Positions 5,667-22,983 of a stretch of 64,000 nucleotides of DNA are shown in pieces. A program made the translations under genes and the position numbers. Positions within the stretch are counted from its first letter, which is position 1. Every line of letters starts with the position of its first letter. Source of the DNA: Cytophagales bacterium (GTDB lineage Bacteria > Bacteroidota > Bacteroidia > Cytophagales > Flammeovirgaceae); assembly GCA_025056215.1 (NCBI GenBank), contig JANWWC010000001.1:1-64000 (forward strand). The letters are read 5' to 3'. Below the pieces are notes generated by a model. That model saw only the letters and a list, made by a program, of their open reading frames with translations, did not search any database and was not told the origin of the DNA.

Positions 5667-7137
5667 TCATTTAAACCGAACGCCAATTATAAGCATATCG
5701 TCGATTTGTTCTGATTTTCCTTTCCAGTCTTTTATGAATTGATCTAACATTATAGGTTGCGTCTCAATGGGTTCTGTATGAATATTTAGCAATACTTCCT
5801 TAAATCCTTTTAAGTTGAGTTTTTTTGCCCGTTTGATGGTGAAATTGGTCTTTGTAGCCATCAGAAAATAGGTACATCATGGTTTCCTCTTGCGCATAGG
5901 TAAACACGTGAGATGAGAAACTTTCGGCATAATTAGCATAGTTGTATCCAATAGAGCATTTACTTCCCTGTATATAAAAAAGCTCGCCTTTTTGAAAATA
6001 AATAAGAGAATTTTTGGCACCTGCAAATTCTACTTTTTTTTGTAACGTATCGATTACACATAAACCAATTTCAATGCTATCTTTAATTTGAAGGCTCTGT
6101 TGGTCTTTTAAGAGAGCTTTTTTTATTTTCTTATTGAGTTCTTGAAGAATAAATACAGCATTTAGCTTTTCAACTTCATAAGATTTAAGTACGTAATAAA
6201 TGGATTCTGAGCCAATTAAAGACATAAAAGCTCCTGGTACACCGTGTCCTGTACAGTCGGCGCAAGCTAAAAACACCTTATTTCCAATCTTGTCGATAAA
6301 ATAAAAATCACCACTTACAATATCTTTGGGTTGATAATATATAAAACTGTCGGGTAGGCAGGATTTAAAGAATTCGTCTGTTGGCAAAAGAGCATATTGG
6401 ATGCGGCTAGCGTAATTAATGCTTGATTGAATATTTTTCAAGTACTTTTCAATAGTTTTGTCTTTAGCTTGTAAGAGTTGCTCTTGGAGAGTTGTAATTT
6501 CTTCGAGATTTTGTTTGAGCTCTTCCTCTCGAATAATTAACTCTTGATTAGCCATTTCTAGTTCTCGGCGTTGTTGTGAAATGGTTTTAAGTTTTTTAGC
6601 ATTTTCCAAAGTTTGTAGTTTGAATTTATGCGCCCAGATTGAACAAATAATGGCTGTAGTAGTTCCTAAAAACGCATGAATGCTGAGAGTTTGCAAATCC
6701 ATGTATTCAAACTGCGTAAAGTAAATCTGATAACCTATATTTGCAGGTAGTCGAAAATGGCGTGGTGTACCATGATAAGACTAATAAAAAAGACTTGTAA
6801 CCATGGATTTTGATAAATAATCAGTATGCCGCAAGTAGTAAAGCTAAAAAAATGCATTTCTAGCAATCCGTGCATCTGGTAATAATGCGAAATTGAAGGT
6901 GATAACGTACTGATGAAGTGGTTTGCAAGCAAATTTGTGTTTGCTAATATAAGATGATAAGATACAAAACAAACTTATTCCTATTGCCCATAGATATGTA
7001 TCTTAAAAAACACTCCAAAGGAAAGAAAAAGCAATATAAATTCCCAGAACATATTCGACGGCTTGATTTGCTTTTTGATATATTTCTTTTAAAATGGATT
7101 CGATTTCTTCTGAGGTAAGAGTAGATGAGTTTTGCAT
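5667..7137 (-). pseudogene. Broken membrane-linked SpoIIE (PP2C-type) phosphatase gene
   Basis: Pieces in three frames line up as one gene of about 490 codons. The 5' piece starts at the ATG at 7137, reads MQNSSTLTSEEIES and a membrane helix, then meets a TAA at 7005-7003. After a frame change near 6935 a histidine-rich membrane segment follows (MHGLLEMHFFSF, VHHAIFDYLQ). A second change lies near 6710. The main piece (6702-5800) has coiled coil and a SpoIIE domain with QPKDIVSGDFYF, ADCTGHGVPGAFMSLIG and LFSDGYKDQ. A third change falls in a run of seven A on the coding strand (plus 5820-5826). The last piece restores GFKEVLLNI and DDMLIIGVRF, the normal family end. With a stop and three shifts it is a pseudogene. 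An intact relative is the 3' domain of the gene at 53294. Confidence 0.8.
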
Positions 7138-7212
7138 ACTTCAATTCTTTTGAAAACTCAAGTGCATCAAACTACATTCTGCAAACTAAGTGAAGAATTC
7201 TTAAATTCAAAA

Positions 7213-7246
7213 CAAAAAAGGTTTTTGCACTGCAAAAACCTTTTCA
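7213..7246 (-). terminator. Terminator after the FucP-type permease gene
   Basis: AAAAGGTTTTTGCA and TGCAAAAACCTTTT form a near-perfect inverted repeat around one base. On the minus strand it is followed by a U-rich run. It sits about 95 bases past the stop of the permease gene at 7341 and before the broken phosphatase gene. Confidence 0.75.
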
Positions 7247-7340
7247 CATTAGCTTAATTTGACCACAAATTACAATTAAATCTTTGTTTAATCATATTAC
7301 GTGCAAATATTTTGCCAAGTTGCTTTGAGTGCTTATAAAT

Positions 7341-8597
7341 TTATTTATAGCGACTTCCTACCATTCCAAAATAAGTAACTACTCCAAAGCATAAGAGCGG
7401 AATAAAAAATCCTGTTTGCATATTAGTTTTATCAGCAATATAACCCATCAATATAGGCGATAGGGCTCCTCCAATGATGGCAGCAATAATGTAAGAAGCT
7501 GCTTGTTTTGTAAAAACTCCTAAATGTTTAATTCCTAATGAAAAAATTGTGGGAAACATAATAGACATGCAGAAAAAAGTAACCAAAAGCGCAACGTAAG
7601 AAATAACTCCTAATCCTAAAATTACTAACAACATGCACAACATGTTGACGAATCCGTATAAACTCAACAAACGAGAGGCTTCTACGAATTTCATCAAATA
7701 AGCTCCGAAAAATCTTCCTATCATAAACAAACCCATTCCAAATAAAGAGAGTTGAATGCCAGCTTCTTGGTCTGTAGCCACGACACCTGTTTCAGTTACG
7801 TAATTAATAAAAAAACTAAAAATACCTGTTTGTGCCGCTACATAACAAAATTGGGTAAAAATTGCCCATTTAAAGTGGTTGTATTCCCAAAGACTATTTT
7901 TTTGAAAAATAGGAGCAGTGTCCTCTTCTGAAAGGGCAACATGGGGATCTACATTCTCTGAAATTTCGGGTAGGTGAGCTTTATAAAACAAGAAGGCTAC
8001 TATCAGGACTACACATCCAATTGTGAGATAAGGAGTAGCCAAAGAACTAAATTGATTTTCAGAGATGCGGCTTTCTTCTGAAAGTATGAGCATGCTTCCT
8101 ACATAAGGACCTGTTATCCAGCCAATACTGTTAAATGCTTGAGAAAAATTAATGCGCCTGTCTGCTGTTTCTTTATCGCCAAGAACTGTCACATACGGAT
8201 TAGCTGCTGTTTCTAAAAAAGTAAGACCGCAGGCAATAATAAAAAGTGCTATCAACACAAACCAAAACTTTTGTATAAATGTTGCTGGATAAAACAAAAA
8301 TGCTCCGAAAGAATACATCAAAAGTCCTACTAGTATACCATGCTTATAACTGTATCTTTTCATAAAGATCCCTGCAGGAATCGCCATTAAAAAGTAAGCG
8401 CCATAAACAGAAAATTGAACAAGTCCAGATTCTGCGCGAGAAACTCCTAGCGCCTCTTGAAAGTGTTTGTTGAGCACATCGAGAATGCTATGAGCGAATC
8501 CCCAAAGAAAGTAAAGAGTCGTAACTAAAATGTAAGGGAAAGTATAATTTTCTTTTTTAGCAGTCATTACTGTTGTAGTTTCGTTTCCCATTTTCAT
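7341..8597 (-). CDS. fucP: FucP-family sugar:H+ symporter (MFS)
   Basis: An inner-membrane major facilitator of the FHS (fucose:H+ symporter) family, 418 residues from the ATG at 8597. An in-frame GTG at 8609 and an ATG at 8591 are alternatives. Twelve hydrophobic segments are visible. The family start is recognisable: FLWGFAHSILDVLNKHFQEA in TM1, then FSVYGAYFLMAIPAGIFMKR in TM2 and FLETAANPYVTVLG in TM4, as in L-fucose, glucose and galactose permeases of this group. The exact sugar cannot be read from the sequence. It stands alone, with no fucose isomerase or kinase beside it. A set of sugar-oxidation genes at 47413-50213 could use its substrate, but the link is inference. Confidence 0.85.
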   Translation of the reverse strand: MKMGNETTTVMTAKKENYTFPYILVTTLYFLWGFAHSILDVLNKHFQEALGVSRAESGLVQFSVYGAYFLMAIPAGIFMKRYSYKHGILVGLLMYSFGAFLFYPATFIQKFWFVLIALFIIACGLTFLETAANPYVTVLGDKETADRRINFSQAFNSIGWITGPYVGSMLILSEESRISENQFSSLATPYLTIGCVVLIVAFLFYKAHLPEISENVDPHVALSEEDTAPIFQKNSLWEYNHFKWAIFTQFCYVAAQTGIFSFFINYVTETGVVATDQEAGIQLSLFGMGLFMIGRFFGAYLMKFVEASRLLSLYGFVNMLCMLLVILGLGVISYVALLVTFFCMSIMFPTIFSLGIKHLGVFTKQAASYIIAAIIGGALSPILMGYIADKTNMQTGFFIPLLCFGVVTYFGMVGSRYK

Positions 8598-8725
8598 ACA
8601 CACATACACTAATGTACAATAATCTGAAATCTTTTTTAGTCAAACAATAAAAAAATTAAAATGGCGCTTGAAATTTTGTCAAACGAATATTGAAAGAAAC
8701 ATAAACGTGCTGTTAAGAAAAACGT

Positions 8726-11700
8726 TTACCAAATTCTAAAATCGTTTTCCAGGTTTTCAGCGCGCGAGGTCGGGTTTTGTTTTCCTTCTGTTAAAAAAGA
8801 TACCCTTTGGGCTACATATTTGCGCAATTCTCCTACGGTGATTTTCTTATCCTGATTCAAGTCTGCTTTTGCCGATTTGATTCCCTCGATAAATGAATAC
8901 GTAAAGACACCATTTTTCCACACATCGCTTTCAAAAGCAAACTCTGCCCCACCTGCCGCACTGATAATTGCTGCACCTGTGCCTTTGTTTAAGTCTGGAA
9001 ATAAATCGTTGAGAAGATAAAAACTTGTAGAAGAAATTTCTTGCACTACCATTTTGGTTTTAAAACCTCTGCTTTTTACAGAAGTTTTTTCTGCATTCTT
9101 TTCAGAGGCTGCAACTGTGATTGATTCACTATCCAACTCGCCTGAATGACAAGCATCTAATAGCATCAGTCGATTACGCGCTGGAATTTGCTCAAACAAA
9201 CCCTCTAATTGCTCGTACAAAATACCGCCGTTTTGTGGGTTGCTAAAATCTGTTGTACTGGTGGCAAAATACCAATTTTGGCCGGCGATTAAACCGTGTC
9301 CTGCTACAAAAATAACGGCATAATCGTTTACATTGCTCTGAGATAAGAACGTTTTTGCTTTTTGAAGCGAGATTGCTGTAGCTTCTTGGTTGTGCAGTTG
9401 CAAAAATTTAACTTCTGAGAATACTTTTCCAGTCGCTCCTTGCCATTGCTTGAGCAAATCAGTTGCGTCTTTAGTTGGATAAGTCAGATCGTAAGAAGCG
9501 TCTTTGTATTGAGAAACAGCTATCGAAACGTAATAAAGCACAGGCAGTTTGGTTTCTTTTGCCTGATAATAAAGCCGTACAGTTTCATAGGGCGATTGGT
9601 TGCCGTTTTGGTCGAACGCCACTATTTGTATTTTGTTTCTTCCATGAGAAAGCGTAGTAGTAAAGCTTTCATTGATGTTCAAACTTAAATTCGTCAAATC
9701 GGTGCGTTTTATGCGGACATCATTTATATATACGTCATAGCGTTGCAAAGGAACTGCCGATTGTGCTGTAAATGAAAGATTTATGTTCGGATTATCTACC
9801 TTTCCCGAGGGGCTATTGATAACTATTTTAATAGGATTAGGTTCTAATCGTAAGTCAGTTTCTTTCAAATTGTATTTTTTCAAGCGGCGTTGATAAGCGT
9901 TGTAGAGTTGGTTCATAAACTTTTCATCCGCAACTTTGAGGCTTTTGGCTACTAAGTCAGGGCGATTGAGCAACAAATCAAATTGTTCCATCGTGTAAAA
10001 TTGCGGATTTTCTGTACGCGACATATTTTCTACAAAGCCAAAGAGGCGTCCTCCTCTTTTAGAAGAAGCGTAACGGAATTTGGTATCAAAACAAATCCAT
10101 TCGTTGTCTTGAACAAACAAGGAAGCGAGTGGCTTCACTATATTTTGGTTGTTAATTTTTTGTCCAGTTTCGTTAAGATTCCAAAGACAAATGGTTTGGT
10201 CATCGCCCAGACTTACAGCATAGTTGCCATTAGGCGAAATGGCTAAGCTCTTAATACCACTCGAATGTCCTTTAAAACGCCTTAATTCGTTTCCACTGGC
10301 ATCGAATAGCACTAAATTCAAAGTAAAACCTACTAGAATATTTCCGTTAGGTGTAAAGGTAAATGTACTAACAGTGCCGTAGTTTCGTTTTGTGTTGATG
10401 AAGTTTTCACCTACTTTTAAAATGTCTAAGTCAAGTATTTGGTTGTTGATGTAGCGTGCAAGTTGTACTCCGTTATGCTTATGCTTTAAGTAGTTGGGCA
10501 ATGCAGTTACAGGAAGATTTTCTGTGATAAGTTGTAACTTCTCAAAGTCGAATACGGCTAAGTGTTTATCAGCAGGGTATTCGGTTGGTTGACCTTGCAT
10601 ATCTCGCGGAAAAAAAGATGAAAGTGCAATTTTTAATCCATCGCCTAAAAATGCAACACCTTGTGTAGGAGCAACTTTTCCGATTTTTTTGATGAGTTTT
10701 CCTTCTTTTGTATTCCACAACACTAATTCGTTATCCGAATTGCGAAAAACGATAGTTTCATCATCGAGAAAGTTATTAGTTTTTCCTGGTCCGCTATAAG
10801 AACCTATCTTTTCTCCTTCTGGAAAAGAATATACAGCGTTTCCTAGCAGAACAGCTTTTCCGCTGGGAGAAAAACGAATCGCTCCTTCTACACTCATATT
10901 CGCTTCCGCAAAGAGTCGAATATGATTACCTTGTATATCCCACAAATGCGTATGGTTAGGGTCTGATGAAAGTACATATTTTCCGTCGGGAGAGGTAGCT
11001 ACTGAAACAAGTGCTTTGTTATGTTTACCGGGGTCTAATTGTTTTTCATTAACAAACTTTACAGTTTCTCCGTCAGAAACGAGTTCAGCCCAATATACTG
11101 ACTTAGAAGCATATCGGCTTACTACCAAATACTTGCCATCTGGAGAAAAACTTACTCCCGAAACGTCGCTTTCAAACACTTTATCAGGTGCTTTGACAAA
11201 TCGGTTTTGTTTTTGAGAAAATACTTTTTGAATATATGCTTGATTCCAAATATAAAGAGATTTATCGTTATTTCCTGAGGCAAGAAACTCTTGCGAACAG
11301 GCTATCGTATTGATAGACTGTGGCGAACCATCGAGTACGCCCAAAAGCTCACCGTTGGTAAGGTCATACACTTTGATGCTACCTACAAAAGCACCTTTGT
11401 TTTTATCCATAAAACCACCTGCGTAGATACGTTTGCCGTCGGGAGAAAGCACTGCGCGGAAGAATTGTCCTTCCTCGGTTGATGTGCTATAAGTGCGAAT
11501 GGTTCGGATATTTTCTCCTGTTTCTACGTCCCAAAGTCGAATCGTTTTATCTTTGGAAAGGGTGATAATGACGTTCAAAGATTGGCTAAATAAGATACTC
11601 ATGATTTCGTCGGTATGCTTTTGTGGCTCTACTACCACAGAAGGACGAAAAACTACTTGTGCAGCTACTTTGGGCGTTACGCGCTTGGCAACTTGTTCAG

Positions 11701-12028
11701 CCAAAATATCTATGCTGTAGGCATCTAATGTCCAATACGCCAAGGATTTTGTATAAGTAGGGAGTTGTTTGGAACAAGGTGTTTTGGTGGTTCCACTTAC
11801 GAGAAGAGCGTTTTTCAATCCGTTTTCTGTTCCGTCAAAACGCCCGTTGGCATCGTACAAAAACCAATCATTTCCCCAAACCGTTAGAGTCAGCAACGGA
11901 TTAGAAAGAGTTTCCATGCCTTTGGCATTATATTGATAAGTATTTCCGTTCGCAGAAAATTCAAAAGAAACCGCTTGCCCAAACAACAAACGATTTCCAA
12001 ATAAAATAACAAAAAGTATCTTTTTCAT
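8726..12028 (-). CDS. Secreted WD40-caspase (peptidase C14) protein with EF-hand-like motif
   Basis: 1100 residues from the ATG at 12028; the frame also opens at a TTG at 12043 overlapping the upstream gene, but the ATG gives a clean signal peptide (MKKILFVILFGNRLLFGQA). Order: N-terminal beta region (20-130); WD40-type propeller repeats (about 135-640, e.g. KDKTIRLWDVETGE, DDQTICLWNLNE); an Ig-like segment (about 720-815); then a caspase-like domain (830-1100) with His911 in VAGHGL and Cys960 in DACHSGE, the full catalytic dyad. Near the end (1056-1067) DLNQDKKITVGEL fits an EF-hand calcium loop, as in some metacaspase-like proteins. It is probably a periplasmic or surface Arg/Lys- or Asp-directed protease whose propeller recognises a partner; the specificity is unknown. 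The gene lies 8 bases behind the gene at 12037 and so is probably in one transcript. Confidence 0.88.
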   Translation of the reverse strand: MKKILFVILFGNRLLFGQAVSFEFSANGNTYQYNAKGMETLSNPLLTLTVWGNDWFLYDANGRFDGTENGLKNALLVSGTTKTPCSKQLPTYTKSLAYWTLDAYSIDILAEQVAKRVTPKVAAQVVFRPSVVVEPQKHTDEIMSILFSQSLNVIITLSKDKTIRLWDVETGENIRTIRTYSTSTEEGQFFRAVLSPDGKRIYAGGFMDKNKGAFVGSIKVYDLTNGELLGVLDGSPQSINTIACSQEFLASGNNDKSLYIWNQAYIQKVFSQKQNRFVKAPDKVFESDVSGVSFSPDGKYLVVSRYASKSVYWAELVSDGETVKFVNEKQLDPGKHNKALVSVATSPDGKYVLSSDPNHTHLWDIQGNHIRLFAEANMSVEGAIRFSPSGKAVLLGNAVYSFPEGEKIGSYSGPGKTNNFLDDETIVFRNSDNELVLWNTKEGKLIKKIGKVAPTQGVAFLGDGLKIALSSFFPRDMQGQPTEYPADKHLAVFDFEKLQLITENLPVTALPNYLKHKHNGVQLARYINNQILDLDILKVGENFINTKRNYGTVSTFTFTPNGNILVGFTLNLVLFDASGNELRRFKGHSSGIKSLAISPNGNYAVSLGDDQTICLWNLNETGQKINNQNIVKPLASLFVQDNEWICFDTKFRYASSKRGGRLFGFVENMSRTENPQFYTMEQFDLLLNRPDLVAKSLKVADEKFMNQLYNAYQRRLKKYNLKETDLRLEPNPIKIVINSPSGKVDNPNINLSFTAQSAVPLQRYDVYINDVRIKRTDLTNLSLNINESFTTTLSHGRNKIQIVAFDQNGNQSPYETVRLYYQAKETKLPVLYYVSIAVSQYKDASYDLTYPTKDATDLLKQWQGATGKVFSEVKFLQLHNQEATAISLQKAKTFLSQSNVNDYAVIFVAGHGLIAGQNWYFATSTTDFSNPQNGGILYEQLEGLFEQIPARNRLMLLDACHSGELDSESITVAASEKNAEKTSVKSRGFKTKMVVQEISSTSFYLLNDLFPDLNKGTGAAIISAAGGAEFAFESDVWKNGVFTYSFIEGIKSAKADLNQDKKITVGELRKYVAQRVSFLTEGKQNPTSRAENLENDFRIW

Positions 12029-12036
12029 GTTAATTT

Positions 12037-13539
12037 TTACCAATTCTCAAAACCTACTCTTGCAATTTCTTCGCCAGTGGCAAGATTGAGAAAAAACGAT
12101 TTGCTTCCATCGTTATCTTTTCTCACTAAAAAAATTACGCCTGTTTCTTCGTTCACTGCTACACTTCCTATTTCTGCGTTGAAAGATTTTTGATAAACTG
12201 TATTTTGGTTTTGCAAATTAATCAATTCTAAGTTTTTGCCTCCCCACAACAAGATATATCGCTTGTCTTGGGTGAGGTAACTATCTTCATAAGTTTCTTT
12301 TAAAGGTATGGTTTGTATTTTTTGTTTAGTAGATTTGTCTAAAATATGAAGTTCCCTATATTTAGCAGCATAGACTTTATCGCCGTTCTCACAGACTGTT
12401 TTATAATCCGGAAAGGGTTGTGCAGCACCTGTGATAAAGTTAATAAGTTTTGTACCTTCTTTATAATTGTAAAACAGCAAATGTGATTCATCAAAAATTG
12501 CTGCTACATAGCCACCTTTTTTAGGAATTTTAATTTTCTTAGATTCTATTTTTTGTCCTGTTTTTATTTCAAAGCTGTGTAAAGTAGAGGTGTTCATATC
12601 TATCACCAACAGTTTATCCTGATAATTAAAGGATTTGACGCTCTCATCTCCGTTTGATGGAAACGAATGTTCAGCTAATTTTTCGCCTTTCAAGTAGTTA
12701 TGGATAATTACTACTCTGTCTTTATTACGCCTTTCTATAAAAGTAATCGTTTTGGAAGGACGATGTAAGCCATCTCTTAAAAAAACTAAATAACTAGGCT
12801 TATGGAGTGTAGTGAGCGAGTCGCCTGTATCGGTCCATAAAGTAAGTCCCCTCTCTGACAGCGTGATAGGTGTGTTATTGTCATCAAAGTCAGTAATGGC
12901 TGATGAGTACATGAGCTTTTCTTTGGGTTTTCTGGCAGGGTTGTGCAACCGCAAAGAATACGACTTGAACATAGCTCTTCCTGATGCAATATAACCAGCG
13001 TGTGTGATAGGCAAACTAAAATTTCTTTTTGCCCAACCCAGTGCGTTGTTCGCCGCTTCTACGTTAATTTGTTTTTCTTTATTTATTTTGATTCTTACGC
13101 CAAATTTTGAACGAACGTCCCAGGAAATATTATCAGAAAATAAGATAGTTGCATTTCCTCCACTGGTGGGTCTTGTCGTGAAAATATAACGTCCCGTAGT
13201 GCGGACAAATTCTAAGATAAACATTTGATTATCAGAAGTTACAAAGCCTACACCGAATCGTCCGTCGCCCTCCAAAAATTCCAAAGTGGTGTAAAACTCT
13301 ATTTCTTCACCTTCTGGAATAGGTTTCATAGAGCTAAAAATCGTATGCACATCGCTGAAAGCATTGACGAGTAATCCGCCTCCGTAATTAGGATTTACTA
13401 TCAACTCATTTGTAGAACGAGAACTCCAATACGTTCCACTTTCACCAAACTTATACACGTTTTCTACATAGCCGACTGGTTGAGCATAACTCAAAGTAGT
13501 AAAAGCTAGCAAAAAAAGATTTAGAATTGTTTTTTTCAT
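12037..13539 (-). CDS. Secreted protein of unknown function, jelly-roll plus propeller-like, operon partner of the caspase
   Basis: 500 residues with a signal peptide (MKKTILNLFLLAFTTLSYAQ). Residues about 25-200 look like an all-beta, lectin/laminin-G-like domain (EIEFYTTLEFLEGDGRFGVG, then TTGRYIFTTRPT). Residues 215-500 contain repeated short beta strands with KLLVIDMNTSTLHSFE, KVYAAKYRELHILD and RYILLWGGKNLELI, the texture of a six- or seven-bladed propeller without clear WD dipeptides. I do not recognise a named family. It ends 9 bases before the ATG of the caspase gene, in the same direction, so co-transcription and joint function in the periplasm or at the surface are likely. Confidence 0.75.
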   Translation of the reverse strand: MKKTILNLFLLAFTTLSYAQPVGYVENVYKFGESGTYWSSRSTNELIVNPNYGGGLLVNAFSDVHTIFSSMKPIPEGEEIEFYTTLEFLEGDGRFGVGFVTSDNQMFILEFVRTTGRYIFTTRPTSGGNATILFSDNISWDVRSKFGVRIKINKEKQINVEAANNALGWAKRNFSLPITHAGYIASGRAMFKSYSLRLHNPARKPKEKLMYSSAITDFDDNNTPITLSERGLTLWTDTGDSLTTLHKPSYLVFLRDGLHRPSKTITFIERRNKDRVVIIHNYLKGEKLAEHSFPSNGDESVKSFNYQDKLLVIDMNTSTLHSFEIKTGQKIESKKIKIPKKGGYVAAIFDESHLLFYNYKEGTKLINFITGAAQPFPDYKTVCENGDKVYAAKYRELHILDKSTKQKIQTIPLKETYEDSYLTQDKRYILLWGGKNLELINLQNQNTVYQKSFNAEIGSVAVNEETGVIFLVRKDNDGSKSFFLNLATGEEIARVGFENW

Positions 13540-13699
13540 TTTTAGAGTGATTTAAAATTCAACGTTATAAAATTCATTGATGTAATTCAATCCGTATTTT
13601 AAGGTAATTTACTCCAGGAGGGTCTTATTTTTCTTGTACTTCGTAAACAAATCTTTTCTACAAAGAATTTTCTATGCAAAGACGAATGCAAATAACCAT

Positions 13700-14695
13700 A
13701 TGATTCAGAACGACAATTTAGAAAAATATCGATTCATAGGAGATGAACAAGCGGACCCAGTTGTCGAGTTTTGTGCAAAAAGTGTAAATAAAGATTTGGT
13801 TCAATTCTTACTTTTTCAAGATACATCCAACTTGTTGAGTCATCTTCCTGTCGAATTACAATTGAAGTGGGAGAAGATGCAACAGTTTCCTGCATGGATA
13901 GACTTTCAAAAAATCAAAATAGCGACCGACTTTTTTTCGAAATATGCTCAACCTATCATGACAATGTTGGGATTGTACTCTTTACCTTATTGCTATGCAG
14001 CAGCTAAAGGAGTAAAGGTGCTTTATTTTTCGGAGCGCTTGCGCTCTGATACATTAAAAAGATTGTATGAAACAGCAGAATTTGTTTGGAACGTTACTCA
14101 ATACGACCATTGGATAGATGGAAAAATTTTTAAGTTTACTCAAAAAATAAGATTTCTTCATGCTTGGATACGTTATTGTATTTGTCGATTACCTTCTTGG
14201 AAAATCTCATGGGGACTTCCCATTAATCAAGAAGATATGGCAGGAACAAATTTGGCTTTTTCTCTTATTGTTCTGAGAGGATTGCGAAAAATTCAGCTGA
14301 AAGTTTCTTTCCAAGAAGCTGAATCTTACTTACATTTGTGGAATGTAGTAGGAAATCTGCTCGGAATAGATGAAAGATTGATTCCTAAGACCTTAAAACA
14401 AGCCAGTCTTCTCGAACAAAAAATTGCTGAAAGACAATTTGTTCCTTCTATGGAAGGACAAACTCTCACAAAAAAGCTTGTGAATACATTACATGAAGCT
14501 ACTCAAAAAAAGATTTCTATCAAGATAATTGAAAACTATATTCATTATTTGCTTGGCGATGATGTCTCTTCTGTTTTGAATATAAAAGCTGACTTTTTGT
14601 ATCCAACTATTTTGTATTCTTATGATATCGGAAAAATGGTTTTTAAAATTAATCCTAATTTTTATGAAAAAAGATCAATTCTAATTTCTGATTAG
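13700..14695 (+). CDS. Oxygenase MpaB-family protein (DUF2236)
   Basis: 331 residues from the ATG at 13700; a TTG at 13634 would add 22 residues of poor quality. The sequence matches the MpaB / latex-clearing-protein related family DUF2236, thought to bind a b-type haem and oxidise lipids or isoprenoids. Visible family traits are GLYSLPYCYAAAKGVKVLYF, a helix with R-x-x-HAWIR, the segment WGLPINQEDMAGTNLAFS, and LHLWNVVGNLLGID towards the end. Histidines in HAWIR and LHLW are candidates for haem ligation. No signal peptide is seen. It is divergent from the caspase operon, and its substrate is unknown. Confidence 0.75.
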   Translation: MIQNDNLEKYRFIGDEQADPVVEFCAKSVNKDLVQFLLFQDTSNLLSHLPVELQLKWEKMQQFPAWIDFQKIKIATDFFSKYAQPIMTMLGLYSLPYCYAAAKGVKVLYFSERLRSDTLKRLYETAEFVWNVTQYDHWIDGKIFKFTQKIRFLHAWIRYCICRLPSWKISWGLPINQEDMAGTNLAFSLIVLRGLRKIQLKVSFQEAESYLHLWNVVGNLLGIDERLIPKTLKQASLLEQKIAERQFVPSMEGQTLTKKLVNTLHEATQKKISIKIIENYIHYLLGDDVSSVLNIKADFLYPTILYSYDIGKMVFKINPNFYEKRSILISD

Positions 14696-14748: not shown

Positions 14749-17700
14749 ATGATAATTGCCAAGCGATGGAAGATCTTACAAATATTTTCGATTCTTTTAC
14801 TCATTCGTTTTTCTTACGCTCAAACAGGTACTGAGTTTTGGTTTGTCGTTCCTGAGGTAATTTCTTCTTCAGATGCTACTAATCGAGGGCGCACTGCTCT
14901 AGAAGGTTTACACGGAGATCGCCCGGGAGTTATAAGACTAAGTTCTTTAAATCAGCCGACAACTGTTACGATTTCCCGTCCTGCTAATCCTTCTTTCAAA
15001 CCCCGAATTATTAACTTGGGAGCTTTTGAAACTCGCACAGATACTATTCAAGATATTGATGATGCAGAAAATTGGCCTCCTAACACTGTTCTTAACAAAG
15101 GTATTTTTATCAAGGCTACTGCTCCCATTACTGCTTATTACGAAGAAGCGAGCAACAATAACCCTGAAATCTTTCCTTTAAAAGGAAATAATGCTTTAGG
15201 ACGCTTATTTTACATTCCTTCTCAGAACGAGTTTCGCAATCAGAGAGGAAGTGCTGCCTTCGACATTGTAGCAATAGAGGATAATACTACAGTAAAAATT
15301 ACGCTCGCTAACCGAGTAAGAGGTGCTCATGTTTCTGTGACTACACCTGCATACCAAAAAGGGGATGTGATTACTGTCGTACTTCATAGAGGACAAACTT
15401 TTTCTTGTAGAGCTGTAGTAGGTACTGGAGTTGCGTCACTTGCTAACAAACTTACAGGAACAAAAATAGAATCCGATAAGCCTATTGCAGTAGTTTATAC
15501 TGACGATTCTATTATCACAGGTACAAGTGGCTGGGATTTGGTAGGAGACCAACTCGTTCCCGTTTCAGTTGTCGGGACAGAATATATTGCCGTAACAGGA
15601 AGAGAAAACTACGGCAAGGAAGTGATTTATGTTACTTCTACTCAACCAGATACGAGAATTTATGTAAATGGCTCTTCAACACCTGTTGCAGTTTTAGCGC
15701 AAGCAGGTAGTACTTTTAGCATTAAGATGAATGTGAACGACGTAGCCACCTATGTTCGAGCAGATAAACCTGTTTATGCAGTTCATTTGTCAGGAATCAG
15801 TACTCCTACTTCTACAGGTGGAGAACAAGGCGACGCAGTGCTTCCGCCTATCAATTGCACGGGTACTAATTCTCAAAGATTTGTCAGAACTACAGGACTT
15901 ACTTTTTCGATTATGTTGCTTACAAAAAACGGTAATCAAGATGGTTTTAGGTTAATCGTTCCGCGCTCGACTGTGTTCCATACTTTTATGGATACACTCG
16001 ATATTTTGAGTGCTTCCTCTTTTAGAGAAGTGCCAGGTACTAATGGCGAATGGGTTGCAGCACGTTTTGATTTTCCGACAGGCGACACCAGAATTCCACA
16101 TGGAAGCAACAGAGCTAGTCAAATTATCAATACAAAAGGGCTTTTTCACATGGGAATGCTCAACAATGTAGGAGCAAGCGCCACTTACGGATATTTTTCT
16201 GATTATAGTCCTATTAATCTTCCAGAGAATCTTTTAGCCGTTGAAGGTGAACCTGTTATTTTGGCGCCCACTACAAGTAATAGCTACGCAGGAGAATTGT
16301 TTAAATGGTTTCACAATGGAAATTTAATTGATTCTGTGAGCCGTTCTATTGTGGTTTCTGATTCTGGAATTTATAAACTTGAATATAATGCGCCTGGTTG
16401 TCCTATATTAGAGGATTCTGTAAAGATTCGATTTGTAAAGCGTCCTACTTTTGAGCTATGGAACGGAAAACGCGATACTACTGTCTGTCAGAATACTTCG
16501 CTTGCTGTAACAGTTCAAATTCCACCCGATGATACTCTAAAGGCAAATACACATTATGCTTATGAATGGTTTGACCTGCAAACAAATCAGCGGATTTCTC
16601 AAAATCAAACGCTTATGTTGCAGAATAGGAGCAGTGGTACGTTTCGCTATCGAATAAAGGTAACAGATTTTTCTACTTCTGCACAAGCCTTCCGAAACGA
16701 TACTATTACAGTAACAGTCCGACCTGCACCACAAGCAGGATTAGGATTGCAAGATACAATTTGTTTTTATAACCTTCCTTATACCTTTCGTGCAAATCCT
16801 GCTGATAGCTTAAATATATACGCTTACCGATGGAATCACTCTTTCACAGATACGTTTTCTTATTTTACAACTTACCAACAAAATACTTCTATCATTACAG
16901 TCCCTCTTGAAATTAAAAACGTTATAACAGGTTGTAAAACAGATACTTTTGCCAGACTATGGGTAGAACTTAATACTGGTTTTATACCTCAATTCGACTT
17001 AGGAGAAAGAGTTCAATTTGTAGAAAAATCTTCTGCTCCATTTCTTTTGCGCACAACATCTTTTCCTACCAACATTGGATTTCCTCCTCGCTACGAATGG
17101 CGATGGCTAGAAAATTCTAATTTCTTCATTTCTACCCATCAAAATCCTTTTACAAATCCCTTAGCTATCAATGTAGATACAACTCTAAGAACGGTAATGA
17201 CCTACACTCTTACAGCTATTAGCGGAAGTTCTTCGGTAATAGGTCCAAACCTTACGAACGTGAAGCCTTTTTGCCAAACTATTGACACCGTCTCGATTGT
17301 GATTTATCAAGCTCCTAGAGTGAAACTTCCTGCCGATACAACTTTTTGCAACGGAAGTATAGATACTCTTATAATTTCTAATCTTGATACTACCAACCTC
17401 CCTTCAGTCCGTTATCTTTGGAGCACGGGTGATACGGTTTCACAGATTCGATATGTTCCTACTGCTAACAAAACTGATACTGTTGTACTGACGGTGATTG
17501 ACACATTTTTAGGGAGGACGTTTTCTGTTAGCGATACGATGTTTATTCGCTCTGTGAGTCCGCCTGTGTTTTTTTTAAACGATACATTGCTTGAAAGGAG
17601 CCGAGTTCCTTTTGTGTTGAATGCTCGCCACGTTAGCCACAGTAGTGCGACTGCTTATCGATGGAACAGCGATTCGCTGAGAAACCGCGATACTTTGATG

Positions 17701-19779
17701 ATGGACATAGATGTTCCGAGTTACAGTGTTTATACGGTGTGGGTAGTAGCTACAGACTATTCTACTTCTGCTCGATGTTCATCTTCAGATACGATTCGGG
17801 TTGAGATATTTGAACGTCCTCGACTTCCGTGGGATACGATTATAGGAGTTTGTGAGGGAGGTTTTCCAGTTGTGCTTCGCGGGAGAGATAGAAGTCACAG
17901 CACTTCGATTCAGTACTATTGGGACAATTATCGAGGAGTTGATTCGCTTGTGATTTACCACCCTGATACAGTGGAGTTGTTGTTAAGGGATACGGCGTTT
18001 TCTGTTCCTATAGAAAGCAAGACGAGATTTTATGTTTCAGAGTTGCCGTTTTACAAGGTGAGTTTGATGGATACGATAGTAGAACGCTCTTCGTTAGTTA
18101 AGTTGCAGGTAGATTCGGTAGATTTGTTTCATCGCGTGATGTGGAGGAGGATAGGTGATACGACGTATTGGGGTCATTGTTTTGCGATGGAAATCAATAC
18201 GGATTATCCTAAGTATACTCAACTACAGTACGAAGTTTTGAGTATTAACACGAACTTAAATGCTTCTTGTGCTTTTCGAGACACAGTAAAAATACTAATT
18301 TATGAAAAACCCATCGTTTTTCTCGGGAACGACACTGTTGTTTGTAAAGATACTTCTCCATTGTTGCTAACCAATAAGAGAAGTGAATTACCTCAGAATT
18401 CAAATCTGCGGTATGTTTGGCAGGACAGTATTATAAGTTCTACTTATACTTTCTACCCTAATAAAAGTCAATTTATTGTGTTAACTTCAATTGATTCTTT
18501 GATACCTGGCGAAAGAGCCCAAAGTCGAGATACGATTCGAATAGAAGTGAAAACATTGCCGATTGTTTATTTAGGAGGCGATACTCTGATTTGGAGAGAC
18601 CTTGAACCCATTTTAATTCGTAATTACTTTTACCAGCCTGATGTAACCTACGAATGGAATCATGGTGCAGGAGGTTATCAAACGTCAATAAGCCGTAATT
18701 TCTTGCAAGATACTGTTTTAAAACTTATTTTAAAAGCTACTGATAACTGGAAATGTGTATCGTCAGATACTTTGAACTTATACATTTTGTATCGTCCTTT
18801 AATAAATTTACCTTTCCGCGATACCGTTGTTTGTTCTGATAATTTTCCATTTTTTATTAGTAGCATCGCTTTGCAAGATTCTCAAAATTTATACTACCAA
18901 TGGTTGAAAGATCAAAAACCTATTGGGAATCGAGCTTCTTTGGTGGTTGATGATACAGGAAAGTATGAGATAGTGGTTTCAGATAATAGGTATTCTCCTC
19001 CTCGCTTCTACAAAGATAGTTTGGTAATCAAAGGTCGCTCGTCGCCGCGCCCTACTATTTTTTCTTCGCGTCAAGAGCAGGTTATTAAAGGCATATGCGA
19101 AAACGAAACAGATATTCTTTCTGTGTATCCTGCTTTCCGCCAATATCGTTGGAATACGGGAGACACTACGCCTACTCTTCGCATATCCGCTCAAGTGAAT
19201 ACCTATGCTGTAACAGTAACCGACGAATATAGCTGCAAAGGAGTTGATAGCATAGATGTTCAAGCAATTTATCCGTTGCCAAAATTGAATTTCCCCCATT
19301 TCGTAGAACCTCTTTGTGAGAATGGTTTTTATGAGATTTCTATCAATCAACCTAATATAACAACTGTTCAATGGAGTGATGGAATTAGTGGAATGAAAAG
19401 AACTTTCGAGGAGAATGGTCAATACATAACTGTTCTGACAGACACTAATGGCTGTCAGGGCATCGATACTATAGAGATTTGGTACAAATGCCTCAATGAA
19501 ATCAACTTGCCGGATGCTTTTACGCCCAACGGAGATGGCATAAATGACGTATTCGAGCCACTTGGTAAGAATATTCTTCGCTACGAAATGACTATTTACA
19601 ATCGTTGGGGAGAAGTCATGTTTTATACAAACAAAAGTGAGGGTTGGAATGGCAAGTGGGCTGGCAGTCCTGTGAGTTCAGGAACTTACTTTTATAAAAT
19701 TTTTTATGAAATTCAGTATGGCAAAGAGCGCAAAGTAGGCAACAAAGAAGGGGCTGTAATTGTTTTAGACACAAATTAA
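14749..19779 (+). CDS. Large T9SS-secreted protein: IgGFc-binding-like N-terminus, Ig-like array, gliding-motility C-terminal domain
   Basis: 1676 residues. Signal peptide 1-25 (ending SYAQ). Residues about 27-490 resemble the IgGFc-binding-protein N-terminal domain: TEFWFVVPE, a repeated strand pattern with APITAYYEEAS and IESDKPIAVVYTDDS, and RADKPVYAVHLSG. Residues about 500-1580 are a long run of Ig/SprB-like beta domains with spaced cysteines in FCNGS, CEGGF and CKDTS contexts and many DTIxIxV strands. The end (1585-1676) is the CHU_C gliding-motility-associated domain, a type B T9SS signal, with LPDAFTPNGDGINDVF, IYNRWGEVMF, GTYFYKI. It is expected on the cell surface or released. The nSTAND1-WD40 gene follows after 51 bases. 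Codon choice in the middle (about 17,500-18,240) shifts to more G-ending codons, perhaps from domain shuffling. Confidence 0.88.
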   Translation: MIIAKRWKILQIFSILLLIRFSYAQTGTEFWFVVPEVISSSDATNRGRTALEGLHGDRPGVIRLSSLNQPTTVTISRPANPSFKPRIINLGAFETRTDTIQDIDDAENWPPNTVLNKGIFIKATAPITAYYEEASNNNPEIFPLKGNNALGRLFYIPSQNEFRNQRGSAAFDIVAIEDNTTVKITLANRVRGAHVSVTTPAYQKGDVITVVLHRGQTFSCRAVVGTGVASLANKLTGTKIESDKPIAVVYTDDSIITGTSGWDLVGDQLVPVSVVGTEYIAVTGRENYGKEVIYVTSTQPDTRIYVNGSSTPVAVLAQAGSTFSIKMNVNDVATYVRADKPVYAVHLSGISTPTSTGGEQGDAVLPPINCTGTNSQRFVRTTGLTFSIMLLTKNGNQDGFRLIVPRSTVFHTFMDTLDILSASSFREVPGTNGEWVAARFDFPTGDTRIPHGSNRASQIINTKGLFHMGMLNNVGASATYGYFSDYSPINLPENLLAVEGEPVILAPTTSNSYAGELFKWFHNGNLIDSVSRSIVVSDSGIYKLEYNAPGCPILEDSVKIRFVKRPTFELWNGKRDTTVCQNTSLAVTVQIPPDDTLKANTHYAYEWFDLQTNQRISQNQTLMLQNRSSGTFRYRIKVTDFSTSAQAFRNDTITVTVRPAPQAGLGLQDTICFYNLPYTFRANPADSLNIYAYRWNHSFTDTFSYFTTYQQNTSIITVPLEIKNVITGCKTDTFARLWVELNTGFIPQFDLGERVQFVEKSSAPFLLRTTSFPTNIGFPPRYEWRWLENSNFFISTHQNPFTNPLAINVDTTLRTVMTYTLTAISGSSSVIGPNLTNVKPFCQTIDTVSIVIYQAPRVKLPADTTFCNGSIDTLIISNLDTTNLPSVRYLWSTGDTVSQIRYVPTANKTDTVVLTVIDTFLGRTFSVSDTMFIRSVSPPVFFLNDTLLERSRVPFVLNARHVSHSSATAYRWNSDSLRNRDTLMMDIDVPSYSVYTVWVVATDYSTSARCSSSDTIRVEIFERPRLPWDTIIGVCEGGFPVVLRGRDRSHSTSIQYYWDNYRGVDSLVIYHPDTVELLLRDTAFSVPIESKTRFYVSELPFYKVSLMDTIVERSSLVKLQVDSVDLFHRVMWRRIGDTTYWGHCFAMEINTDYPKYTQLQYEVLSINTNLNASCAFRDTVKILIYEKPIVFLGNDTVVCKDTSPLLLTNKRSELPQNSNLRYVWQDSIISSTYTFYPNKSQFIVLTSIDSLIPGERAQSRDTIRIEVKTLPIVYLGGDTLIWRDLEPILIRNYFYQPDVTYEWNHGAGGYQTSISRNFLQDTVLKLILKATDNWKCVSSDTLNLYILYRPLINLPFRDTVVCSDNFPFFISSIALQDSQNLYYQWLKDQKPIGNRASLVVDDTGKYEIVVSDNRYSPPRFYKDSLVIKGRSSPRPTIFSSRQEQVIKGICENETDILSVYPAFRQYRWNTGDTTPTLRISAQVNTYAVTVTDEYSCKGVDSIDVQAIYPLPKLNFPHFVEPLCENGFYEISINQPNITTVQWSDGISGMKRTFEENGQYITVLTDTNGCQGIDTIEIWYKCLNEINLPDAFTPNGDGINDVFEPLGKNILRYEMTIYNRWGEVMFYTNKSEGWNGKWAGSPVSSGTYFYKIFYEIQYGKERKVGNKEGAVIVLDTN

Positions 19780-19800
19780 GCAAAATTGACTTTTTTTGAA

Positions 19801-19808
19801 TATTTTTG
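19801..19808 (+). promoter_or_regulatory. Promoter -7 box (TATTTTTG) of the nSTAND1-WD40 gene
   Basis: An exact TAnnTTTG match 22 bases before the ATG at 19831, in the 51-base gap. Upstream is T-rich with a TTG at a shorter distance. It suggests that the gene can be transcribed separately from the surface-protein gene in front. Confidence 0.4.
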
Positions 19809-19830
19809 CGTTATTTAGGCAAAAAATTGC

Positions 19831-22800
19831 ATGAGCTACGCTGCGCCCGAACATACGACGTTTACTATCTATTCTCAAACGCGAGAAAATCCATTCCCAG
19901 GGCTGCGTCCATTTTTTCCTGAAGAATCCCATTTATTTTTTGGAAGAGAAAAACAACTAGATGAAGTTTTAAATAAATTAGAAAACAACCGATTCATTGC
20001 TATTCTCGGTACTTCGGGAGGTGGCAAATCTTCTTTTATGTATTGTGGTTTGTTACCAAGTTTATCGGCAGGTTTCTTGCGTCATTCGACTGCTGAGTGG
20101 AAAATGATAATAGTACGCCCTGGAGTTTCTCCGCTTCAAAATATGGCAGAGGCTTTTGCCAGGCTCGACAATGGCGATATGTCTAACGAAGAAATAGGTC
20201 TTAGAAGAGAATACTGCGAGGCTGTTTTAAAAAGTAGTTCCAAAGGCTTAGTGGAGTTGTGTAAGCAAAAGTGGAAAAATCCTTCTGAATACTTTTTAAT
20301 TCTTATAGATCAATTCGAGGAGCTATTTCGATTTGTGAATGCAGAAGAAAATTTTTTGCAGCGCTCTGATGAATCTTTAGCCTACGTTCGTCTTATTACG
20401 AAAGCGCTTTCGCAGACGGAGGTTCCAATTTATATAGTGATGACAATGCGCTCCGATTATATCGGAGATTGCGCTCGATTTCCAGATTTAACAGAGTATA
20501 TCAATAAAAGTCACTATTTGATTCCTCAGATGACGCGGGAGCAGAAGCGATTGGCTATTTTGGGTCCGATTGCAGTGAGTGGAGCTAAAATTACACAACG
20601 CTTAGTTCAGCAACTTCTCAACGATTTGGGAGATAATCAAGACCAACTTCCTATTATGCAACATGCGCTAATGCGCACCTGGGATTACTGGCTACGGCAC
20701 GCTTCACCTAATGAGCCTATTGATATTCCGCATTATGAGGCTATTGGAACAATGGCTTCTGCTCTTTCCATTCATGCGAAGGAAGCTTTTGAAGAACTAA
20801 CAGAAAATCAGAAAATTATATGTGAAAAGGTCTTTAAAGCTATTACAGAAAAGGGAAATGACGGAAGAAGCGTTCGGCGTCCCACTAAACTTAAATATAT
20901 CGCTCAGATTGTAGACTCTTCTATTGAAGAAGTGAAAGAAGTAATTGAAGTATTTCGCAAGCCAGGGCGCACCTTACTTACTCCTATGTATCCTGCTGTG
21001 CTTCATGCAGAAACAGTAGTCGATATTTCTCACGAAAGCTTGATGCGTATCTGGGATAAACTGCGCGAGTGGGTAGAAGAAGAAGCAGAGTCTGTAAAAA
21101 TGTATCTTAAGCTTTCGGAGGCAGCGCAGGCTTATCAGTTAGGAAAAGCACGTCTTTGGAGACCTCCCGACCTATTAGTAGCTCTTAACTGGCGCGAAAA
21201 AAATAAGCCTAATCTCGCTTGGGCACAACGACACGACCCTGCTTTTGAGCGAGCGATGGTATTCTTAGAAATCAGCCAAAACGACTACGAAGAAGAGCAG
21301 CGAGTAAAAGACCGCATTCAAAAACAAAGACTAAAAAAGGCGCGTTCATTTGCCATTTTTATGGCTGTTTGCGTATTGTTGGCTATTTGCATGCTTATTT
21401 ATTCTTACCTGAAGAAAACACAAGCAGAGCGCTCTGAGCAAGAAGCTATCGTACAAAGATTAGAAGCAGAAAAGCAAACTCTCGAAGCTAACCGCCAGCG
21501 TATGATTGCTTTGAATAAACAGCGAGAAGCGCAAGAACAAAAAATAATTGCTGAAAACAGACAACAATTTGCTGAGCAAAAAGCTTTAGAAGCGCTTTAT
21601 CAAAAGCAGCTCGCAGAGAAAGCGCTCTTGGAAGCCAAAAAACAAGAAGAGAATGCCCGACTAAGCGAACAAAGAGCTATCTATCAAACTAAAGTTGCTG
21701 AGCAACAATCCAAGATTGCAGAGCAGAATGCCTTACGCGCTGAGCAAGAAGGTAGAAGGGCACTACAAGCTGAAGCTAATGCTAATCGCCTTCGTTTTCT
21801 TACACTTGCTCAGTCGATGGCAATTAAGTCGTTGCAATTTAAAGATGCCGAACTGAAAGCGCTCTTGGCGCAACAAGCGTATCATTTTCATGCTAATTAT
21901 CAAGGAAATCCTTATCATCCTGATATACTTGCAGGACTTTATTATGCTGAAAAAGCCTTGTATGGAACTGATTTTAATCTCCTTAAAGGGCATTCCGATG
22001 CAGTGAGAGCAATAGTTTTTGATAATAGTGGTAAAGCACTTTTTACAACTGGGAGCGATGGTAGAATATTAATGTGGAAGTTGCCCCACGATGTACAATC
22101 TAAGCCACAAATTATTTACGAGTCTTCTAAAAGTCGCATTCATAAAGTCATGCAATTAAGTGCTAACGGGAAATGGTTAGCTATTGGCAACGACGAATCT
22201 GAAATCTTGCTCTATAATGCACAAACTTTAGCTTTCGTACAGGAGCTCAAAATACATCAACAGGGGATCGCAGCATTAGTTTTTTCTCCTGATAGCCGCT
22301 ACTTAGTAAGTGCAGGAGGGGATAACTTTATTAAAATGACTGATTTACAGTCTTTACAAACGCAACTCATTCTTCAAGAGAAAGAAAAAATCAAAGGAAT
22401 AGTAGCAACTTCTCAGAATCAAATCATTTATTTATGCAAAAGTGCACTTGTGAAAATAGCTGAAATACTTCCTAAAGCATCTTCTGCCTTTTTAATAAAA
22501 GAAACACTAAAAGATGAAGGAAATGCTATTGCGATAAGTCCTGATAATCAATGGCTCGCTATTGGTTTTCAAAGCGGAAAAATCTTGATATGGAATTTGA
22601 AAGAGAACAGATTAGAAACAGAGCTATTAGGGCATGAAACATGGATAAGCCATCTTCAGTTTAGCTCTCCTAATTCGGAAAAAGTTTCTTTTTTGGGAAG
22701 TGCTAGTTTTGATGGTACTGCCAAAATTTGGATAGTAGGCGAATGGGATAATATCCCAATTGTATTCAACGACCACCTCTCTTGGGTTTGGAGTTTGGCG

Positions 22801-22983
22801 TTTAGTCCTCAAGCAGATTACGTTGTAACGGGTTGCGTAGATAAGTCTATAAGAATTTATTCTCTTTCACTACAAGAAATCTCTAATCGAGTTTGTCAGC
22901 GACTTTCACGCAATATGACCGAAAAAGAATGGAAACGTTTCGTAGGAGAAGACATCCTATACCAATCTACTTGTAATCGTTAA
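19831..22983 (+). CDS. Membrane-anchored nSTAND1 NTPase with coiled coil and WD40 propeller
   Basis: 1050 residues. NPFPGLRPF at 20-28 is the signature start of the novel STAND NTPase 1 domain. Walker A GTSGGGKSS lies near 60-68, and Walker B LILIDQFEEL has Asp160. The domain's C-terminal tail is recognised by LWRPPDLLVALNWRE and AFERAMVFLEIS (about 445-490). One membrane helix follows (about 504-527) with Lys/Arg on both sides, then a long Glu/Gln/Ala coiled coil (about 530-660), then WD40 repeats (about 710-1010; e.g. GHSDAVRAIVF, GSASFDGTAKIW, TGCVDKSIRIYSL). STAND proteins act as ATP-driven sensory switches that oligomerise on detecting a ligand. With a single helix, the NTPase and propeller should lie on opposite sides of the inner membrane. 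It follows the IgGFc-binding-like gene, which may be its partner. Confidence 0.88.
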   Translation: MSYAAPEHTTFTIYSQTRENPFPGLRPFFPEESHLFFGREKQLDEVLNKLENNRFIAILGTSGGGKSSFMYCGLLPSLSAGFLRHSTAEWKMIIVRPGVSPLQNMAEAFARLDNGDMSNEEIGLRREYCEAVLKSSSKGLVELCKQKWKNPSEYFLILIDQFEELFRFVNAEENFLQRSDESLAYVRLITKALSQTEVPIYIVMTMRSDYIGDCARFPDLTEYINKSHYLIPQMTREQKRLAILGPIAVSGAKITQRLVQQLLNDLGDNQDQLPIMQHALMRTWDYWLRHASPNEPIDIPHYEAIGTMASALSIHAKEAFEELTENQKIICEKVFKAITEKGNDGRSVRRPTKLKYIAQIVDSSIEEVKEVIEVFRKPGRTLLTPMYPAVLHAETVVDISHESLMRIWDKLREWVEEEAESVKMYLKLSEAAQAYQLGKARLWRPPDLLVALNWREKNKPNLAWAQRHDPAFERAMVFLEISQNDYEEEQRVKDRIQKQRLKKARSFAIFMAVCVLLAICMLIYSYLKKTQAERSEQEAIVQRLEAEKQTLEANRQRMIALNKQREAQEQKIIAENRQQFAEQKALEALYQKQLAEKALLEAKKQEENARLSEQRAIYQTKVAEQQSKIAEQNALRAEQEGRRALQAEANANRLRFLTLAQSMAIKSLQFKDAELKALLAQQAYHFHANYQGNPYHPDILAGLYYAEKALYGTDFNLLKGHSDAVRAIVFDNSGKALFTTGSDGRILMWKLPHDVQSKPQIIYESSKSRIHKVMQLSANGKWLAIGNDESEILLYNAQTLAFVQELKIHQQGIAALVFSPDSRYLVSAGGDNFIKMTDLQSLQTQLILQEKEKIKGIVATSQNQIIYLCKSALVKIAEILPKASSAFLIKETLKDEGNAIAISPDNQWLAIGFQSGKILIWNLKENRLETELLGHETWISHLQFSSPNSEKVSFLGSASFDGTAKIWIVGEWDNIPIVFNDHLSWVWSLAFSPQADYVVTGCVDKSIRIYSLSLQEISNRVCQRLSRNMTEKEWKRFVGEDILYQSTCNR

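Follow-up and report, generated by a model that had tools for sequence, protein, structure and literature searches.

A gene for a giant cell-surface protein lies directly before a gene for a membrane-anchored STAND ATPase in the 64,000-nucleotide stretch of Cytophagales DNA analysed here (the window; contig JANWWC010000001.1, assembly GCA_025056215.1), which raises the question of whether surface contact could be passed through the envelope to an ATP-driven switch, and with which partners. STAND and TIR switches are known mainly as cytosolic immune machines. A sequence-only reading of the window had joined the two genes and a nearby caspase operon into one candidate system.

Predicted topology of the STAND protein

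The upstream gene (14749..19779, + strand) encodes a 1676-aa protein with an IgGFc_binding domain (Pfam, aa 148-399, 3.5e-35) and a CHU_C domain (aa 1586-1656, 2.5e-14). The latter is a type-B C-terminal sorting domain (TIGR04131) that marks the protein as a substrate of the type IX secretion system (T9SS). After a gap of 51 bp (19780..19830) the same strand carries the gene for a 1050-aa nSTAND1-TM-coiled coil-WD40 protein (19831..22983, +), the core of the system described below. The ORFs and Pfam domains confirm the arrangement as first read. A match to the Bacteroidota -7-type motif TAnnTTTG lies 30 bp 5' of the STAND start (19801..19808, +), and the STAND gene may have its own promoter inside the gap; the motif has a background of 0.00078 per base per strand in the window, and a consensus match alone is no proof.

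The STAND protein begins with an nSTAND1 NTPase domain (aa 21-436; 19891..21138, +) that is predicted to be cytoplasmic. It matches PF20703 at 2.4e-91, with a score of 311 bits against a cut-off of 27.1, and its Walker A motif (GxxGxGKS) reads GTSGGGKSS, within a GxSGxGKSS pattern kept across the homologue alignment. One strong hydrophobic segment (aa 506-524; 21346..21402, +) is identified by its hydrophobicity and flanking charges as the lone membrane helix between ATPase and WD40 domain, as had been noticed from the sequence. It is followed by a predicted periplasmic rod, an alanine-heptad coiled coil at about aa 530-667 (21418..21831, +) that is seen in the alignment and appears as a low-confidence helix in the structure model, with its middle also of low confidence. 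The WD40 beta-propeller, predicted to be periplasmic as well, occupies about aa 716-1011 (21976..22863, +) and is recognised by Pfam (1.7e-32), the structure model, and Foldseek. In the alignment, the C-terminal tail (22894..22974, +) shows a conserved Cys pair, C1022/C1048, that may form a periplasmic disulfide.

The same patterns recur among 99 homologues. Lys plus Arg residues in the 20 positions before the helix outnumber those after it in 98 proteins and tie in one (means 6.9 and 3.6), a second strong hydrophobic segment is absent from 97, and a Cys pair spaced by 20-36 residues falls within the last 75 residues in 83. The linker from helix to propeller has a median length of 122 aa (39 measured) and would extend about 18 nm if helical. 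The periplasm is close to this width. The positive-inside pattern, the Cys pair, and the coil length thus agree with the earlier suggestion of a periplasmic propeller, and the predicted arrangement, a cytoplasmic ATPase with a periplasmic propeller, is well supported. WD40 propellers are mostly cytosolic, and the hydrophobic segment could be a mere anchor with both soluble domains on the cytoplasmic side. We regard this arrangement as very unlikely given the charge bias, the conserved tail cysteines, and the long rod, to which are added the near-constant downstream partner, an outer-membrane barrel, and a domain exchange that falls on the N-terminal side (both described below).

IgGFc and caspase genes as chance neighbours

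The caspase genes do lie beyond one intervening gene, an MPAB/Lcp oxygenase-like gene at 13634-14695. They form an overlapping pair on the opposite strand (8726..13539, -). The caspase gene (8726-12043, -) encodes WD40 repeats and a Peptidase_C14 domain (Pfam, 1.4e-8), and its partner (12037-13539, -), which overlaps it by 7 bp, encodes a product of no known family. Sec-type signal peptides were recognised by eye at the N-termini of both, so neither protein is expected in the cytosol alongside the ATPase. The caspase scored 65.7 bits against NF047832, for which the cut-off is 140, and it therefore falls outside the EACC1-associated caspase conflict systems.

If the IgGFc protein were the surface ligand-binder for the STAND protein and the caspase operon its effector, their genes should recur together in relatives. 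The adjacency was seen in the window's genome only: related genomes gave 25 neighbourhoods of STAND homologues, none with an IgGFc homologue, and no STAND gene lay beside IgGFc in 15 IgGFc-homologue neighbourhoods. A further 80 named STAND loci, taken from GTDB genomes with flanks of at most 10 kb and some contigs shorter, held no ORF with a match to the IgGFc N-terminus, to the type-B tail, or to the caspase domain. The two STAND sets, about 100 loci in all, overlap in a few Flammeovirga genomes. One weak caspase-gene match near the STAND homologue L074 was the STAND gene itself, found via its WD40 repeats. By the yardstick set in the sequence-only reading itself, adjacency confined to one genome, the surveys refute a conserved IgGFc-STAND pair; we also reject the caspase operon as STAND effector, on its non-conservation and its signal peptides. 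What speaks for the pairing is that a T9SS surface protein adjoins a membrane STAND gene, 51 bp away on the same strand; the promoter-like motif before STAND and the position of the signal-peptide-bearing caspase, on the opposite strand past an unrelated gene, weigh against it, and with the surveys they leave it extremely improbable. We judge that rearrangement has made the IgGFc gene and the caspase operon chance neighbours of STAND. The caspase genes do not belong to the system, and may encode a secreted caspase-fold protease pair of their own. Elsewhere in the window, a 1061-aa secreted protein (1413-4598, -) carries many PARCEL-type repeats (TIGR02167, seven stretches, 5.4e-58).

A conserved envelope operon in relatives

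An all-against-all comparison of STAND neighbourhoods gave a different set of partners. The STAND gene of relatives sits in an operon with the order NTT/MFS-HEAT-cNMP membrane protein (NTT-HEAT, about 1050-1090 aa), sometimes a SpoIIE/HAMP phosphatase, TIR/DUF4062-like protein (TIR-like, 450-500 aa), STAND, outer-membrane barrel (350-400 aa), lipoprotein (400-450 aa), and giant T9SS type-A surface protein (about 1.9-3.7 kaa). Among the 80 named loci, the barrel gene is directly 3' of STAND in 67 of the 74 that have a downstream ORF, and the TIR-like gene is directly 5' in 47 of 78; 33 of the 80, some of them on short contigs, gave no TIR-like protein. The loci come from Cytophagales, including Flammeovirga, Fulvivirga, Chryseosolibacter, and Shiella, from Bacteroidales MAGs, and from Sediminibacterium and Mucilaginibacter, with more divergent loci in Acidobacteriota MAGs and one Nostocales genome.

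The partners that flank STAND downstream have features of the outer envelope. The barrel has a signal peptide, an N-terminal region with two invariant cysteines, and an OMP_b-brl_2 domain; the lipoprotein has an invariant lipobox Cys and, in 5 of 18 cases, similarity to a DUF5122 propeller; the giants combine PKD/Ig-type repeats with a Por_Secre_tail that identifies them as T9SS substrates. The idea of a membrane STAND protein with a periplasmic propeller, tied to a T9SS surface protein, is thus strongly and independently supported, with partners other than the IgGFc protein.

Upstream, the NTT-HEAT protein has a TLC/MFS-like membrane part, with HEAT_2 in 15 of 15 proteins and cNMP_binding in 9 of 15. 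TIR_2 was matched in 10 of 18 TIR-like proteins and DUF4062 in 12 of 18 (best match 1.8e-8). The model of the TIR-like protein has three alpha/beta domains (pLDDT 82); Foldseek with the full model returned mostly generic alpha/beta folds, the TIR domains being single-domain matches, and a sequence search of solved structures with its profile gave a weak plant TIR match only. The corresponding search with the ATPase yielded nothing useful. At the presumed catalytic Glu of the DUF4062-like domain, a position set by motif and not by structure, 15 of 18 proteins have Gln and the window's genome has Glu. Because this position is mostly Gln, the TIR-like protein may not be an enzyme, and its sequence makes an adaptor role and NADase activity about equally likely.

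Such domains would fit an envelope-triggered suicide system against phage or other invaders with a TIR/STAND output, as STAND, TIR, and DUF4062 recur in defence and the DUF4062 proteins of Swarozyc and TEP1 act as NADases (PMC13174449). Yet the set is present in single copy in most genomes and is largely vertically inherited, its envelope partners are large and fixed, and the presumed catalytic Glu is mostly replaced. PADLOC, moreover, gave no informative match: no whole protein matched a defence model, and the partial matches were driven by WD40 repeats or P-loops only. We consider a suicide system unlikely.

Co-occurrence and dispersal in the window's genome

Of 58 genomes surveyed, the same 25 have strong matches to STAND, TIR-like, barrel, NTT-HEAT, and giant proteins. 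Relatedness inflates these counts (nine of the 25 are Flammeovirga), and the profiles were themselves derived from the genomes counted. Within this survey, one genome (G047) has STAND, barrel, and giant without a TIR-like protein, and the remaining genomes lack the set, save a divergent STAND in G027. A class-wide sample of 295 genomes, with weak partial matches included, gave STAND in 24, barrel in 21, and TIR-like in 10, with STAND and barrel together in 18; the TIR-like member is thus less constant at larger distance. Pairwise distances of the TIR-like protein and the barrel correlate with those of STAND at r=0.97 and r=0.94, respectively.

The window's own genome retains the set in unlinked form. 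Profile searches placed the lipoprotein on the contig of the window itself (C9:275785-277041, 1.5e-56; STAND begins at C9:19831), the TIR-like protein (C10:257265-258626, 8.5e-92) and the giant (C10:302370-303827, 1.1e-111) on a second contig, the barrel on a third (C11:196531-197565, 7.9e-100), and the NTT-HEAT protein on a fourth (C12:207740-210823, 2e-269). The second-best giant match in this genome, at 9e-14, covers the tail only. An N-run crosses the giant gene (C10; L219 ~6175-11864), and the N-terminal frame is split in the assembly. All sites are in the interior of large contigs among unrelated neighbours, which makes assembly error an unlikely cause of the scattering. In G007, of the same family, the operon order is intact, and the STAND and NTT-HEAT trees place the window's genome with its family (supports of 100/99 and 98/97, respectively); the barrel tree does not cleanly recover this family. 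Based on the intact order and the two trees, the simplest reading is dispersal after vertical inheritance. The true partners of a gene may thus be unlinked in a rearranged genome, where nearest-neighbour guesses mislead.

Exchange of the ATPase for three TIR domains

Three genomes of the same family (G001, G004, and G011) encode a 1217-1228-aa protein with three TIR domains (TIR_2, 3e-76 to 2e-83) where the ATPase would be. The transmembrane helix is kept, and the C-terminal coil, propeller, and Cys tail resemble those of the window protein (1e-38 to 4e-52). A barrel homologue (4.6e-23 to 2.6e-31) lies directly 3' of each gene with an overlap of 1-26 bases; the loci are L220 4575-9268, L221 2997-7821, and L222 8874-13707. 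The surroundings of the triple-TIR version yielded no homologue of the lipoprotein or of NTT-HEAT, and G001 and G004 have no strong giant match genome-wide. The exchange changes the predicted inner part, and the predicted outer part keeps its outer-membrane partner. Of all the evidence, we give it the most weight as an argument that this is a receptor whose output can be exchanged.

This bears on the most serious alternative, that the STAND complex is no sensor and instead an ATP-driven machine for the assembly, export, or anchoring of the giant. Every genome with a strong STAND match also has a strong giant match, the giant is usually the last gene of the operon, and an ATPase that reaches the outer membrane could do work there. 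Gene order and co-occurrence report linkage and not the direction of sensing, and would be no different for a machine of assembly or export. STAND families are switches, however, and the closest folds are Apaf-1-like. Three TIR domains, which do no mechanical work, replace the ATPase with propeller and barrel kept, and this version occurs without a detected lipoprotein or NTT-HEAT gene nearby and, in two genomes, without a strong giant match. We find the machine doubtful.

Proposed mechanism and comparison with known systems

The STAND protein probably forms the core, in the inner membrane, of a modular receptor that spans the envelope and couples the state of the surface or outer membrane to a STAND/TIR output in the cytoplasm. 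Gene linkage and the predicted topology have good support; the physical complex, ligand, output, and signalling direction are inferred. The nSTAND1 ATPase would face the cytoplasm, and the coiled-coil rod of about 18 nm would span the periplasm and hold the propeller near the outer membrane. There it may meet the barrel with its N-terminal periplasmic region, the lipoprotein propeller, and the giant T9SS-exported protein, the latter two presumably displayed at the surface, in a physical complex. Contact with the surface protein/barrel complex, or a change in its state, would move propeller and rod, leading to nucleotide exchange and to ATPase clustering, by analogy with Apaf-1. The clustered ATPase could then couple to the co-encoded TIR/DUF4062-like protein, which would serve as adaptor or effector, and the NTT/MFS-HEAT-cNMP protein would be a further inner-membrane partner.

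The top Foldseek matches of the STAND protein are to Apaf-1 (3shf, 3sfz, 3j2t), which shares the order of NTPase (an NB-ARC STAND ATPase) and WD40 sensor. Apaf-1 is soluble and carries a CARD, whereas a Pfam scan found no CARD in the window protein, where ATPase and propeller are set apart by a membrane helix followed by a rod of about 120 residues. The nearest combination of DUF4062, STAND, and WD40 is in TEP1, NWD1, and NWD2 (DUF4062-NACHT-WD40), where a DUF4062-like TIR fold is joined with STAND and WD40 (PMC13174449). In those proteins the domains share one chain; in the present set the TIR/DUF4062-like part has its own gene, the NTPase belongs to nSTAND1, and a periplasmic location is predicted for the propeller. 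Outer-membrane partners are absent from both TEP1/NWD proteins and Apaf-1, and in neither does a membrane separate the ATPase from the propeller. The TIR-like partner resembles Swarozyc, a bacterial DUF4062 NADase defence system, in its DUF4062 match (12 of 18), but has three alpha/beta domains, mostly Gln at the presumed catalytic position, and a fixed envelope operon around which no signs of a defence island were seen. The nSTAND1 domain is shared with nSTAND1 conflict and EACC1-caspase systems (PMC8195603, PMC7159879), but no effector-associated domain and no conserved caspase partner were found in the present set. The portions consulted of these papers and of a further one on STAND conflict systems (PMC10907252) mention no outer-membrane or T9SS partners. 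The triple-TIR variant recalls Toll-like receptors (TIR-TM-ectodomain) in its TIR domains, one membrane helix, and predicted extracytoplasmic propeller, but is bacterial, has no leucine-rich repeats, and is coupled to an outer-membrane barrel.

No description of the operon was found in the open-access literature, most subscription papers lying outside the search, and the conserved protein set, which seems to link the outer surface to an inner switch in Bacteroidota, is apparently undescribed. We regard the set as a variant on the STAND/TIR signalling already known, and there is a fair chance that it represents a new class of trans-envelope receptor. More tentatively, Bacteroidota could possess a receptor class in which a rod-borne periplasmic WD40 propeller reads a barrel and a T9SS protein and drives interchangeable outputs, either nSTAND1 with a TIR/DUF4062 partner or three TIR domains. 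If so, such receptors could be seen in their layout as bacterial equivalents of Toll-like receptors, or as an Apaf-1 divided by a membrane. With its defined barrel, lipoprotein, and giant, the operon makes it possible to test directly how contact at the surface of Bacteroidota might reach a STAND/TIR switch in the cytoplasm.

Divergent loci and paralogues

Several loci depart from the common form. In L189, L190, L193, L195, L204, L208, and L210 (Chitinophagales, Sphingobacteriales, Acidobacteriota, and others), the barrel partner measures about 850-910 aa, over double its normal length. In Nostocales HT-58-2 (L206), a TIR-like gene directly precedes a STAND homologue of 1331 aa, and barrel and lipoprotein are missing, leaving a TIR-STAND core alone. 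In the Flammeovirga genomes G010 (C90), G012, G014, and G017 (L106), a divergent second copy of STAND is present, and paralogues of the barrel and NTT-HEAT proteins lie about 15-25 kb from it.
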